Assembly: GCA_022226955.1 (NCBI GenBank)
Contig: CP092079.1
Location: 2,755,043-2,819,042 of the forward strand
DNA from: Nitrospira sp.
GTDB taxonomy: Bacteria; Nitrospirota; Nitrospiria; Nitrospirales; Nitrospiraceae
DNA: 64,000 nucleotides
Direction of reading: 5' to 3'
The notes below the pieces were generated by a model, which was not told the origin of the DNA, ran no database searches, and saw nothing but the letters and a program-made list of their open reading frames with translations. The position numbers and the translations under genes are program-made. Positions 289 to 5,219 of the stretch are shown piece by piece; the stretch's first letter is position 1, and every line of letters begins with the position of its first letter.

Positions 289-1422
289 ATGTCGAAGATT
301 TTGATCGTAGCCGGAGAAGCCTCCGGCGATCTTCATGGGGCGAATCTGGCCCGGGCGCTTCGCGAGCTCGATCCCTCCGTCCAGTTAGTGGGCGTCGGCG
401 GGGTGGCAATGAAGGCTGCCGGTGTGCAGCTGGTGGAAGGCTTCGGGCATCTCGATGTCATGGGGATTGTCGGGTTCTCGGCCTTGCGCGCGATCATCCG
501 CCGGTTTGCCGCCATGCGCCGGCTGCTTCGATCTGAACGATGGGATGCCGTAGTCTTTATCGACAACCCCGGACTCAATCTGCGCTATGCCTGGTTTGCC
601 AAGTCGGCCGGGCTGCGGGTGATCTATTATATTGCGCCGCAGATCTGGGCCTGGCGTCCAGGCCGCATGAAATATATTCAACAGCGTGTCGATCAAGTCC
701 TTGTGATTTTGCCGTTCGAAGCCGAGCTGTATCGCAAGGTCGGCTTGCCCTGTACTTTTGTCGGCCATCCGCTGCTCGATGCCGTGGCCCCGCATTATGA
801 TCGGGCGAAGTTGCGCGAACGATTCGGGTTGCAGTCGTCCGGCCGGATCATTGCGTTGTTGCCAGGAAGCCGGTCGGCGGAAGTGCGGCTGCATCTCCCG
901 ATTCTGCTGGAGGCGGCGGAGCGATTGCTGCGCGACGATCCGACGATGCAGTTTCTGATGCCGCAAGCCTCGACGATTGCCGACGCTCTGATCCGGCCGT
1001 TGCTGGACAAGAGTTCGGCGCCAGTCACGGTGGTCCCGGAGCAGGCGAGCGAGGTGATGGCGGCCGCGGACCTCATCTGCGTGGCCTCGGGGACGGCGAC
1101 GTTGCAGGCGGCGGTTGTGGGGACCCCGATGGTGCTGTTCTATCAGGCGCATTCCCAGTTGACCTATCGGCTGGCCCGGCTGTTGATCCGGGTGAAGTGG
1201 ATCGGATTGGTGAATCTGGTAGCCGGCCGGACCGTGGTGACGGAATTAATTCAGCATGAAGCCACGGGTGAGAGGGTGTATCATGAAGTTCGCCGGTTGT
1301 TAGACGACCGTGCGGCATACGATGAGATGAAGCGCAGTCTGCAAGCGGTGAAAGCCAGTCTCGGACAGCCCGGCGCTTCGCGCAGAGCCGCCCAGGTGAT
1401 ATTAGACGCATGTCGAGCGTAG
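289..1422 (+). CDS. lpxB: Lipid-A-disaccharide synthase LpxB
   Basis: A 377-residue GT19 glycosyltransferase of normal length. It joins UDP-2,3-diacylglucosamine to lipid X to make the lipid A disaccharide at the cytoplasmic membrane. Family marks are the N-terminal GEASGDLHGANLARAL, the central YYIAPQIWAWRPGR and the LPGSRSAEVRLHLP nucleotide-binding segment near residue 190, then an SGTATLQA motif near residue 265. The ATG follows a GAGAG ribosome-binding stretch. The end overlaps the start of the msbA-like gene by 13 bp, so the two are probably translationally coupled in the lipid A operon. Confidence 0.95.
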   Translation: MSKILIVAGEASGDLHGANLARALRELDPSVQLVGVGGVAMKAAGVQLVEGFGHLDVMGIVGFSALRAIIRRFAAMRRLLRSERWDAVVFIDNPGLNLRYAWFAKSAGLRVIYYIAPQIWAWRPGRMKYIQQRVDQVLVILPFEAELYRKVGLPCTFVGHPLLDAVAPHYDRAKLRERFGLQSSGRIIALLPGSRSAEVRLHLPILLEAAERLLRDDPTMQFLMPQASTIADALIRPLLDKSSAPVTVVPEQASEVMAAADLICVASGTATLQAAVVGTPMVLFYQAHSQLTYRLARLLIRVKWIGLVNLVAGRTVVTELIQHEATGERVYHEVRRLLDDRAAYDEMKRSLQAVKASLGQPGASRRAAQVILDACRA

Positions 1423-3155
1423 AGCGATTCTTTCGGTTACTGCGGTATGTCCGGCCCTATCGAGGCCGGTTCGTCGCGGCCATTGTCTGCTCCGGCATGG
1501 TGGCGGCGCTGTCCGGCGTCTATGCCTGGCTGGTGAAGCCGGTGCTGGATGGGATTTTCATCGAGAAGAACGAATCGTTGCTCTGGGTCCTTCCGCTCGC
1601 GCTCTTGGCGGTGTCGATCGTCAAGGCCTTCTTCAGCTACGGGCAAACCTATCTTATGAACTATGTCGGCAACCGGGTGATTGCCGATATTCGCCAGGCG
1701 TTGTTCCTTCATCTGATGCGGCTGCCGGTCGGCTATCACGATGCCAATACGTCCGGACGGCTGGTGTCCCGTGTCGTGAACGATGTGGGATTGATGGCGA
1801 ACGCCGTCTCCAATGTCCTCAAGGACATGTTTCAGCATGCCCTGACGTTTATCGTGATGCTCGGCGTCATCGTGTATCAGAACTGGCAGCTGGCGGGGCT
1901 GTCGATCATCGTCATCCCGCTTGCCGTGGTGACGATGTCCCGCATGGGTCGGCGCCTTCGCGCACTGGCCACCAGCGGGCAAGAGCGGATGGGAGACATG
2001 TCCTCGACGGTGCAGGAGACGCTGTCGGGGATTCGGATGGTCAAAGCATTCCGCCGCGAAGAGGCGGAGGCGGCCCGATTCGAGCAGAGCAACCGGGCCT
2101 TTTTGAGCACGACGCTGAAGGCCAATCAGGTGTGGTCGATCGGGTCGTCGCACATGGAAGTGATCGGGGTAGTCGGGGTCGCGGTGATTATTTGGTACGG
2201 CGGTTATCTGGTGTTGCATGGCAGCATGACGCCGGGCGCGTTCTTCTCATTTCTAACCGCGATGTTCATGGCCTACACACCCATTCGAAAGCTGGCCGGG
2301 GTGAACAATCTGATTCAGCAGGCGATGGCCGCTTCAGAGCGGGTCTTTGAAGTGCTGGATCTTGCGACAGAGCAGGCACAAGACAAGGGCACGCTGGTGT
2401 GCCAGGGAATCGCCGACCGGATCGAATTGCGCGGGGTGTCGCTCAGCTACAGCGGCCAGACGGCACCGGCTTTGGCGGGAGTCGATCTCGTCATTCGCGC
2501 CGGTGAAATGGTTGCGCTGGTCGGGAGCAGCGGCAGCGGCAAGTCCACGCTGGTGAGTCTGTTGCCGAGATTTTACCAGCCGACCGGCGGACAGATGCTG
2601 CTCGACGGCGCGCCGTTAGAATCGTATACCTTGGCGTCGCTGCGCACGCAGATCGGCATTGTGTCGCAGGAGGTGGTGTTGTTCGACGATACCGTCGCCA
2701 GTAACATCGCGTTTGGGCGACCGGGGGCGACTGCGAACGACATCGAACAGGCTGCCAAGCAGGCCTATGCGCATGATTTTATTTCCCGGTTGCCTGAAGG
2801 CTATCAGACGACGATTGGCGAACGAGGGATAAAGCTGTCGGGTGGCGAGCGCCAGCGCATTGCCATCGCTCGGGCGATTTTACGCGATCCTCCGTTGCTG
2901 ATTTTGGACGAGGCGACCTCCGCGCTTGACACGGAGTCCGAACGCATCGTGCAGCTGGCGCTGGCGAATTTGATGAAGAATCGCACGACGGTGGTGATTG
3001 CTCATCGGCTCTCGACGGTGCAGAATGCCACCAGAATTGTGGTGCTGGACCGTGGCCGGGTGGCCGAGATCGGTACGCACGACGAACTCTTGAGACACAA
3101 CGGCTTGTACCAGCGGTTGCATGCCATGCAATTCCAAGACGTAACGAATGTATGA
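1410..3155 (+). CDS. msbA: Lipid A export ABC transporter, MsbA-like
   Basis: A 581-residue half-transporter with an N-terminal six-helix membrane domain (about residues 15-310) and a C-terminal ATPase. The Walker A motif GSSGSGKST lies near residue 373, the signature LSGGERQRIAIARAIL near 475 and Walker B LLILDEATSALD near 497, followed by an H-loop in VVIAHRLS. In the family the homodimer flips core-lipid A across the inner membrane. Its position between lpxB and the acyltransferase/waaA genes supports a lipid A role rather than drug export. The ATG at 1410 lies inside the end of lpxB. Confidence 0.92.
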   Translation: MSSVERFFRLLRYVRPYRGRFVAAIVCSGMVAALSGVYAWLVKPVLDGIFIEKNESLLWVLPLALLAVSIVKAFFSYGQTYLMNYVGNRVIADIRQALFLHLMRLPVGYHDANTSGRLVSRVVNDVGLMANAVSNVLKDMFQHALTFIVMLGVIVYQNWQLAGLSIIVIPLAVVTMSRMGRRLRALATSGQERMGDMSSTVQETLSGIRMVKAFRREEAEAARFEQSNRAFLSTTLKANQVWSIGSSHMEVIGVVGVAVIIWYGGYLVLHGSMTPGAFFSFLTAMFMAYTPIRKLAGVNNLIQQAMAASERVFEVLDLATEQAQDKGTLVCQGIADRIELRGVSLSYSGQTAPALAGVDLVIRAGEMVALVGSSGSGKSTLVSLLPRFYQPTGGQMLLDGAPLESYTLASLRTQIGIVSQEVVLFDDTVASNIAFGRPGATANDIEQAAKQAYAHDFISRLPEGYQTTIGERGIKLSGGERQRIAIARAILRDPPLLILDEATSALDTESERIVQLALANLMKNRTTVVIAHRLSTVQNATRIVVLDRGRVAEIGTHDELLRHNGLYQRLHAMQFQDVTNV

Positions 3156-3160
3156 ACACC

Positions 3161-3188
3161 GTGTGACAGGTGATATGTGACAGGTGAT
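3161..3188 (+). repeat. 14-bp tandem repeat upstream of and across the acyltransferase start
   Basis: Two adjacent 14-bp units, 3161-3174 and 3175-3188, share 13 bases (TGTGACAGGTGAT) and differ only in the first base. The second copy overlaps the GTG start at 3177 of the acyltransferase gene. The unit resembles a segment at 13211-13223 (CGTGTGACGGGCG against CGTGTGACAGGTG here). This may be a small dispersed intergenic element. Confidence 0.7.
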
Positions 3189-3871
3189 GCGATTCAGCAA
3201 AAAGTCAGCCTGAAGAAGCGGATGGAGCGATGGATCAAGTTTTCCCTGCTGCCGCCGCTTGGAGCGCTGGTGATTCGTGGGATCAAGGGCAGTATGCGGC
3301 TGGAGCAGCGCGGCTTTGAGCCGGTGGATGCGCTGTACCGCGAGAAGCGGTCCATCATTCTGGCGTTCTGGCATGCCCAACAATTGATGATTCCGTTCGG
3401 GTATCGCGGGCCGGGATCGCATGTGCTGATCAGCCAGCATGGCGATGGCGAAATTATCGCCCGCATCATTGCCCGGTTTGGCCATGAGGCCGTTCGTGGA
3501 TCGAGTACCCGTGGCGGCGCCGGGGCGCTGCGGTCGCTCATTAAGCTGGGGCGGTCGGGCAAAGATGTCGTCGTGACACCGGATGGCCCCAAAGGCCCGC
3601 GGCAAGTGGCAAAGCTGGGCGTCATTCAACTGGCGAAGGCCACGGGGTTGCCGATTGTCCCGCTCGGCTTCGCCTGCTCAAAAAAAAACTCTTCTCGAGC
3701 TGGGATCGCTTCATGGTGCCGTATCCATTTTCCCGCGGAGTCTTTCTCTGGGGCGCTCCGATCTGGGTCTCGCGCGAAGCGGATGACGCCGCGCTTGAGG
3801 CCGCCCGTGTCGAATTGGAATCGACCTTAAACCGGCTGACGGATCAAGCTGAAGCGGAGGTCGTGTCCTAG
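3177..3871 (+). pseudogene. lpxJ: DUF374 lipid A acyltransferase (LpxJ-like), frame interrupted at a poly-A run
   Basis: The N-terminal frame (GTG 3177) encodes a DUF374 lysophospholipid-acyltransferase-fold protein: ILAFWHAQQLMIPFG holds the catalytic His region, followed by SQHGDGEII, RGSSTRGGAGALR and VVTPDGPKGPRQVAKLG. After residue 170 the read frame turns to nonsense and stops at 3830. Moving one base back at the A9 run 3680-3688 restores KKLFSSWDRFMVPYPFSRG and continues to TAG 3869-3871, giving a normal protein of about 231 residues. LpxJ, a DUF374 protein, is the known Kdo-lipid A secondary acyltransferase in Campylobacter. Position between msbA and waaA fits that role. The break could be a sequencing error, a true mutation, phase variation or productive slippage. 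An alternative start is ATG 3222. Confidence 0.8.
3680..3688 (+). other. A9 homopolymer, possible slippage or frameshift site
   Basis: Nine consecutive A residues in the zero frame read TCA AAA AAA AAC. A -1 slip on the A-AAA-AAC heptamer, or one extra A in DNA or mRNA, joins the two conserved halves of the acyltransferase exactly. I see no clear downstream stem-loop that would favour programmed ribosomal frameshifting. Confidence 0.6.
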
Positions 3872-3878
3872 CCAACCC

Positions 3879-5219
3879 ATGTGGCGACTGCTCTACAATA
3901 CGCTGTTCATTCTGGCTACGCCGATCATCCTCTGTATTTTGCTCGCCAAGAAACGGTGCCGGAGAGGCTTGCTCGACCGGTTGGGGTTGCGTGTCAAGCC
4001 GGTTCTGGAGCCATCCGGAGCGCGCCGCCCGTTGATCTGGATTCATGCCGTGTCGCTCGGGGAAGTCGTGGCGGTCACGCCGCTGGTGAAAGCGCTGCAT
4101 CGCAACCATCCCGATCACCGGTTTATTGTCTCGACGGTGACGGAAACAGGCCGCGAAGCGGTTGAACAACGACTGGCGGGAGTTGCGGAACATCGCTATG
4201 CCCCGCTCGATGTTCCCTGGGCCGTATCCCGCGCTATCGCGCAGTGGCAGCCGGTGCTCTATGCGTTTGTCGAGACCGAACTCTGGCCGAATCTCTTATG
4301 GACGCTGCGGGATCGGCGAGTGCCGGCCATCATGGTAAATGGACGGCTGTCGTCGCGGTCGTTCGCCCGGCAGCATGTCCCCGGACTCATCTCATTCTAT
4401 CGATCGGTGCTGCGGTCGCTCACGCTCTGCCTGATGCAGTCGGAGCGCGATGTGCAGCGCATTGTGGCGCTCGGGGCCGACCCTGCCAGGGTCCAGCGGA
4501 CCGGCAATATCAAGTTCGATCAGCCGCTGCCAGTAAAGCCGGTGGATGCGTCCTTTCGGGCCAGCTTCGGCATCGGCGAGGGCGACCAGCTTCTCTTGGC
4601 CGGAAGCACGCATGCCGGCGAAGAGGAGATGATCGTTGTGGCCTATCGAACGGTGGTGCAACAGCATCCCTCAGCCGTCCTGATGCTGGCGCCTCGGCAC
4701 ATCGAGCGGGTAGACGAAGTGATCGCGCTAGTCACGGCCGCCGGTTTTTCGGCGCAGCGCAAGAGCCGTCTCGATTCCGTTCGATCCGGCGCGCGTGTCA
4801 TCATCCTGGATACGAGGGGAGAATTGGCGCGGGCCTATCATGAGGCGGCGGTGGCATTTGTCGGCGGCACCTTGGTCCCGGTGGGCGGACATAATTTGCT
4901 GGAGCCGGCTGTTTTAGGCAAGCCGGTGTTGTTTGGCCCCTACACAGACCATTGTGCGGAAATTGCGACGCTCCTCTTGGAATCCGGCGGCGCGGTCCGG
5001 GTGTCCGATGCGGAGGCGGTTGCGCGAATGGTGAGTGCCTGGCTGGAGGATGCGTCTTCCCGCCTTCAGGTCGGAGAGGCGGCCCGCCAAACAGTCTTGG
5101 ATAACCAGGGCGCGCTGCAGCGGAGCCTGGATTCAATCGAAGCTTGTTTGCCTCACGGGCCGTCGTCTTCCTCTAGGCCTGCCGGTCAGATGCCGCAGCC
5201 GGCGATTGCGAGGTCGTGA
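3879..5219 (+). CDS. waaA: 3-deoxy-D-manno-octulosonic acid transferase WaaA (KdtA)
   Basis: A 446-residue GT30 enzyme, slightly longer than the usual 420-430. It transfers Kdo from CMP-Kdo to lipid IVA at the inner face of the cytoplasmic membrane. It has an N-terminal membrane anchor (residues 2-22), then GLLDRLGLRVKP, IHAVSLGEVVAVTPLVKAL with the catalytic Glu, ETELWPNLLW near residue 130, and GGHNLLEPAVLGKPVLFGP near 340. It begins 7 bp after the true end of the acyltransferase and overlaps lpxK by 4 bp. Whether it adds one or two Kdo residues cannot be read from the sequence. Confidence 0.94.
   Translation: MWRLLYNTLFILATPIILCILLAKKRCRRGLLDRLGLRVKPVLEPSGARRPLIWIHAVSLGEVVAVTPLVKALHRNHPDHRFIVSTVTETGREAVEQRLAGVAEHRYAPLDVPWAVSRAIAQWQPVLYAFVETELWPNLLWTLRDRRVPAIMVNGRLSSRSFARQHVPGLISFYRSVLRSLTLCLMQSERDVQRIVALGADPARVQRTGNIKFDQPLPVKPVDASFRASFGIGEGDQLLLAGSTHAGEEEMIVVAYRTVVQQHPSAVLMLAPRHIERVDEVIALVTAAGFSAQRKSRLDSVRSGARVIILDTRGELARAYHEAAVAFVGGTLVPVGGHNLLEPAVLGKPVLFGPYTDHCAEIATLLLESGGAVRVSDAEAVARMVSAWLEDASSRLQVGEAARQTVLDNQGALQRSLDSIEACLPHGPSSSSRPAGQMPQPAIARS

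Follow-up and report, generated by a model that had tools for sequence, protein, structure and literature searches.

The lipid A gene cluster of Nitrospira sp. raises the question of how one enzyme can be made from a gene whose two parts lie in different reading frames. The window considered here is the whole 64,000-nucleotide stretch of contig CP092079.1 that was analyzed. It contains a cluster opening with an ORF that we take, by sequence similarity, to be lpxB, and the gene in question is interrupted at a run of nine A residues (Table 1). When the joined protein of 231 amino acids is compared with the closed genome of 3,635,119 bases by tblastn, it is recovered as two pieces in two frames, which meet at the A9 run. 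The frame 0 ORF consists of 170 conserved N-terminal residues followed by an out-of-frame tail. As described in the initial annotation, the two frames are joined only at the run, with the second part in the −1 frame, and the continuation ends at a normal stop just before waaA. The start codon of the gene is uncertain because a perfect direct repeat, TGTGACAGGTGAT, spans the presumed start (window 3162-3188, two copies 14 nt apart).

Table 1. Features of the lipid A cluster, in coordinates of the window.
Feature	Position	Strand	Evidence or remark
Presumed lpxB (lipid A disaccharide synthase), which opens the local cluster	289..1422	+	ORF
msbA-type lipid A ABC transporter gene, immediately 5′ of lpxJ	1410..3155	+	ORF
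lpxJ frame 0 ORF, 217 aa (start 3177, stop codon 3828-3830)	3177..3830	+	ORF; PF04028 match at residues 76-142, E 7e-28
A9 run at the lpxJ junction; the TCA wobble base is the first A	3680..3688	+	
lpxJ shifted-frame C-terminal part with the essential Trp-Asp pair (CTC at 3689 to TAG at 3869-3871)	3689..3871	+	Protein-type conservation
waaA, Kdo transferase, 3′ neighbor of lpxJ (ATG at 3879)	3879..5219	+	ORF
lpxK, next cluster gene after waaA	5216..6313	+	ORF; control gene in the split count

The sequence of the gene supports its identification as a lipid A acyltransferase and places it in the LpxJ (DUF374) family of late acyltransferases. The initial annotation had located the DUF374 domain on both sides of the run; the LpxJ protein does continue past it, but the Pfam match itself lies wholly 5′ of the run. 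In Rickettsia typhi, LpxJ is a DUF374 enzyme responsible for attaching the 3′ secondary acyl chain to lipid A, and its activity is lost upon change of W60, H61, D86, D132, W172 or D173 (PMC6148475). In the joined Nitrospira protein, W65-H66, D90 and D136 precede the run, while the Trp-Asp pair falls wholly within the shifted part, the correspondence to the R. typhi numbering being made by motif and spacing, not by direct alignment. With one nucleotide added, the distance from the Asp of TPDGP to the Trp of SWD is 40 residues in all 158 frame-gapped sequences described below, which is the distance between D132 and W172 in R. typhi. This spacing is restored by the addition of one A and not by the removal of two. 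The joined protein therefore resembles the R. typhi enzyme in its Pfam family, its critical residues (W-H, D, D, W-D) and its Asp-to-Trp spacing. The two differ in that the report on R. typhi mentions no frameshift (PMC6148475), whereas the Nitrospira gene is frame-gapped.

The fold was modeled on an in-frame relative, L004 (AlphaFold, pLDDT 89). The model places strands and a long helix past the junction, and its fold matches those of PlsC, PatA and LpxM (LPLAT). The model of the frame 0 product, built from a thin alignment, has a low-confidence tail (pLDDT 30-52). As the essential Trp-Asp pair lies only in the shifted part, the frame 0 product alone should be a dead, inactive fragment. Re-initiation at the ATG at 3713 was also considered but seems unlikely, since neither piece would then contain the Trp-Asp pair and many relatives have another residue in place of the Met. 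The genome also contains two LpxL/LpxM-type genes (PF03279), so other late acyltransferases probably exist beside LpxJ.

The gene is present in 75 of the 79 genomes of the genus and, in almost all, it appears as two tblastn pieces meeting at approximately residues 172-174. The same two-piece pattern is seen across the family and across the class. In a comparison of lpxJ DNA from 181 distinct Nitrospirota homologues, the frame gap was found in 158, from ten coded families both within the class (f1, f2, f4, f5, f6, f7 and f8) and outside it (f17, f18 and f21). The broken state is thus conserved over the whole class and beyond. All 158 carry a junction run of at least nine A, with A9 in 144, A10 in 13 and A11 in one. 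In those of the longer runs that were inspected, a base adjacent to the run has mutated to A, leaving the total length, and hence the gap, the same. The run changes its phase relative to the codons but keeps a length of nine or more; runs that begin one base later (TCT, CGC or CGT) still contain at least nine A. This fixed length spans approximately 50 genus labels and includes the complete genome of Nitrospira moscoviensis (L059). The gene order msbA-lpxJ-waaA is likewise conserved, with msbA upstream in 157 of the 158 frame-gapped relatives and waaA downstream in all 154 for which there is enough sequence. Contigs titled Hyphomicrobium (L035), Acidimicrobiia (L089) and Nitrosospira (L090) are probably mis-binned or mislabeled, since a Nitrospira-type lpxJ with the A9 gap is found under those names.

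The other 23 homologues are in frame, and 21 of these lack any run of at least seven A. One exception, L157, has an in-frame A10 and is the sole such case among the homologues compared. The other, L003, was examined as a natural single-ORF gene and proved to be an artefact: in the UBA6493 contig (L003/L033), an NN just after TPDGPKGP, upstream of the A9 run, produces a false single ORF through the run. In-frame genes occur in about five lineages, namely L004/L032 (G043), L066/L156 (G218), L157 (G242), L158 (G180) and L160/L164/L222 (family f3), and the A run has also been lost in all but L157. Labeling the frame state on the tree gave six changes without L003, and five if the divergent in-frame outgroups were also left out. 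This fits one gain of the gap followed by about five re-fusions, on a tree that is insecure at its root and at many of its deep branches.

Codon usage within the run shows synonymous constraint. Across the 158 joined frames, the three Lys codons of the run are AAA in 100% of cases against 57% in these genes at large, where the other 43% of Lys codons are AAG, and the Ser codon is TCA in 97% against 14%. Within TCA AAA AAA AAA, the Lys codons show no synonymous variation and the Ser codon almost none, while elsewhere such variation averages 83-95% of expectation over well-conserved columns. A few less conserved codons next to the run (GCC on its 5′ side, CTC and GCG on its 3′ side) also vary little, without an evident reason; the CTC and GCG (window 3689-3706 and relatives) may form a slippage or pausing context. 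Downstream of the run, base entropy at shifted-frame positions 1, 2 and 3 is 0.66, 0.54 and 1.31 bits, a profile typical of protein-coding sequence read in that frame. Stops in frame 0 are scattered from 1 to 81 codons past the run. The tail of the short product is thus not conserved, and a conserved short product was ruled out on this basis.

Within these loci, such interruptions are rare outside lpxJ. Frame splits affected 6 of the 328 lpxB, msbA, waaA and lpxK genes compared at the same loci, and only three other runs of at least nine A or T were present in 957 kb of these loci, compared with 160 at lpxJ. Counting both strands, the genome of the window has four A9 sites: the lpxJ run, one in the leader of a TPP riboswitch and two that close terminator-like stretches. 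A relative, G003, has three, one of which is lpxJ; such rarity is not general, since another relative, G231, has 82. With only four A9 sites in the genome of the window and a gap that recurs in 158 distinct homologues, the A9 gap of lpxJ is more than chance.

Two related intergenic stretches ending in T9 were also observed on the minus strand (L113:1490-1660 and L114:1490-1660, at approximately C1:2233907 and C1:2250392 of their own genome). Each has a TTGACA/TATAA-like start and hairpins of the types GGGAGACAACGAAGTCTCC and GGACAACGACGTCC. These are candidate small RNAs, for which a comparison with Rfam gave no match.

The frame gap is not a sequencing error and is most likely an old and actively kept decoding signal. 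We consider that the active product of lpxJ depends on programmed transcriptional slippage at the A9 run as its main route, with a probability of roughly 0.78. RNA polymerase would slip on the run, with an efficiency that sets the share of mRNAs that gain an additional A and so carry A10. Translation of the A10 mRNA would yield the full LpxJ of 231 amino acids, complete with the final strands and helix of the fold and the Trp-Asp pair, while the unslipped mRNA would yield only the presumably inactive fragment of 217 amino acids, which ends in a random tail. The gap would have been kept in the class Nitrospiria and in some other Nitrospirota families presumably by holding the level of LpxJ below that of an in-frame gene. 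Consistent with this route, which was among the options of the initial annotation, the run of at least nine A joins two overlapping ORFs of one homologous protein, and both the ORF arrangement and the run are kept in non-identical homologues.

It could instead be the ribosome that changes frame. The mRNA would then be uniformly A9, with ribosomes producing full LpxJ either by a −1 shift at A_AAA_AAC/G or by sliding along the AAA codons; through the classic heptamer, Asn would replace the third Lys of the full-length protein. A slippery heptamer of the form X_XXY_YYZ is indeed in frame in most members, as A_AAA_AAC or A_AAA_AAG (A_AAA_AAC in the window), and ribosomes are able to slide on A runs. 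A magnesium chelatase cassette of nine A gave 40% frameshifting in E. coli, by a route left unsettled in the passage concerned (PMC3711429). The heptamer, however, needs only six or seven A, while the run is never shorter than nine as its phase drifts, and the wobble A of TCA is fixed though it lies outside the heptamer. An upstream Shine–Dalgarno-like 4-mer was present in only one of the 158 frame-gapped homologues, and no conserved RNA structure was found, the consensus fold having an energy of −0.72 kcal/mol and no covariation; such stimulators are usual for programmed −1 frameshifting, but not strictly required. The genome also encodes two Lys tRNAs, TTT and CTT, which serve AAA and AAG separately, a situation linked to slippage in Thermus (PMC1088944, PMC5009743). 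Slippage in bacteria is, in addition, known to become strong at a length of nine A. From these features, we infer that the polymerase rather than the ribosome slips, and ribosomal recoding is judged to be unlikely.

The initial annotation also put forward a phase-variation switch, in which replication slippage between A9 and A10 would turn lpxJ on or off. Genes for surface lipids that contain a homopolymer are typical places for such a switch, but mixed run lengths with on and off states among relatives would be expected and were not seen: the length is fixed, at exactly nine in 144 sequences, and the only relative with ten A and an open frame is L157. Phase variation is hence highly improbable. 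An indel from sequencing or assembly had been named there as the simplest alternative, and a pseudogene was considered together with it. Homopolymers are prone to error and the L003 exception did prove to be an artefact of its contig; nonetheless, the same state is shared by 158 distinct sequences, a complete genome among them, the neighboring genes are intact and coding-type selection continues past the run. This explanation can scarcely be credited.

Transcriptional slippage on nine A has been described for dnaX of Thermus thermophilus (PMC1088944, PMC5009743). This system resembles lpxJ in having a sense-strand A9 in a cellular gene, two Lys tRNAs and mixed products expected from one gene. 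The outcome is reversed, however, as the unslipped Thermus mRNA gives the long product and the slipped mRNA the short one, whereas lpxJ would need slipping for its long active product. Closer in arrangement are mxiE of Shigella flexneri and the Chlorobi-type two-ORF dnaX, where slippage joins two overlapping ORFs into a long protein. These are other genes with other functions, mxiE has a U run, and the conservation of lpxJ spans a class and further families. Baranov et al. (2005) reported conserved genes with nine A, mostly in IS elements; lpxJ shows the same ORF arrangement with a conserved nine A in non-identical homologues, but it is a chromosomal lipid A gene and that set consists mostly of mobile elements. 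Slippage-dependent genes are therefore already known from Thermus dnaX, mxiE, IS elements and endosymbionts. No earlier description of lpxJ recoding in Nitrospirota was found in the searchable literature, and the survey by Antonov et al. (2013) included one Nitrospirae genome. As a gene probably read through polymerase slippage, lpxJ would be a new and unusually deeply conserved case.

The benefit of such an arrangement is a separate matter. The simplest would be level-setting, with LpxJ made from only a fraction of transcripts. Against the gap being indispensable, about five lineages have reverted to an in-frame gene. It may be that there is no benefit, and that the gap arose once and persists as slippage makes enough enzyme. 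This concerns the reason and not the mechanism, so its likelihood is not exclusive of those above. The tolerated re-fusions would agree with it, as would the unconserved frame 0 tails, which suggest that the short product is unused. A single inserted A would, however, restore the frame and allow the run to decay, and this has been rare over some 50 genus labels; we regard such a neutral persistence as possible but on the unlikely side. More doubtful is the proposal that the A9 run acts as a regulated rheostat, with a slippage frequency that shifts with temperature, nucleotide pools or growth rate. If true, Nitrospirota would use the fidelity of RNA polymerase itself to adjust the acylation of lipid A. 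Translational coupling to waaA was rejected as a reason, as the distance from the lpxJ stop to waaA is not conserved, these distances being rough since the waaA start was inferred from tblastn.

The slippage-dependent genes known so far are mostly those of mobile elements, endosymbionts and narrow lineages, whereas lpxJ has been kept across ten families or more in a phylum of nitrifiers of central environmental importance. The pseudogene-like lpxJ of these genomes is, judging from its sequence, almost certainly active, and automated annotation pipelines will have cut it in two or dropped it. It offers a clean system for asking why selection keeps an enzyme dependent on slippage, in which the lineages with re-fused, in-frame genes serve as natural controls for the effect of the gap.
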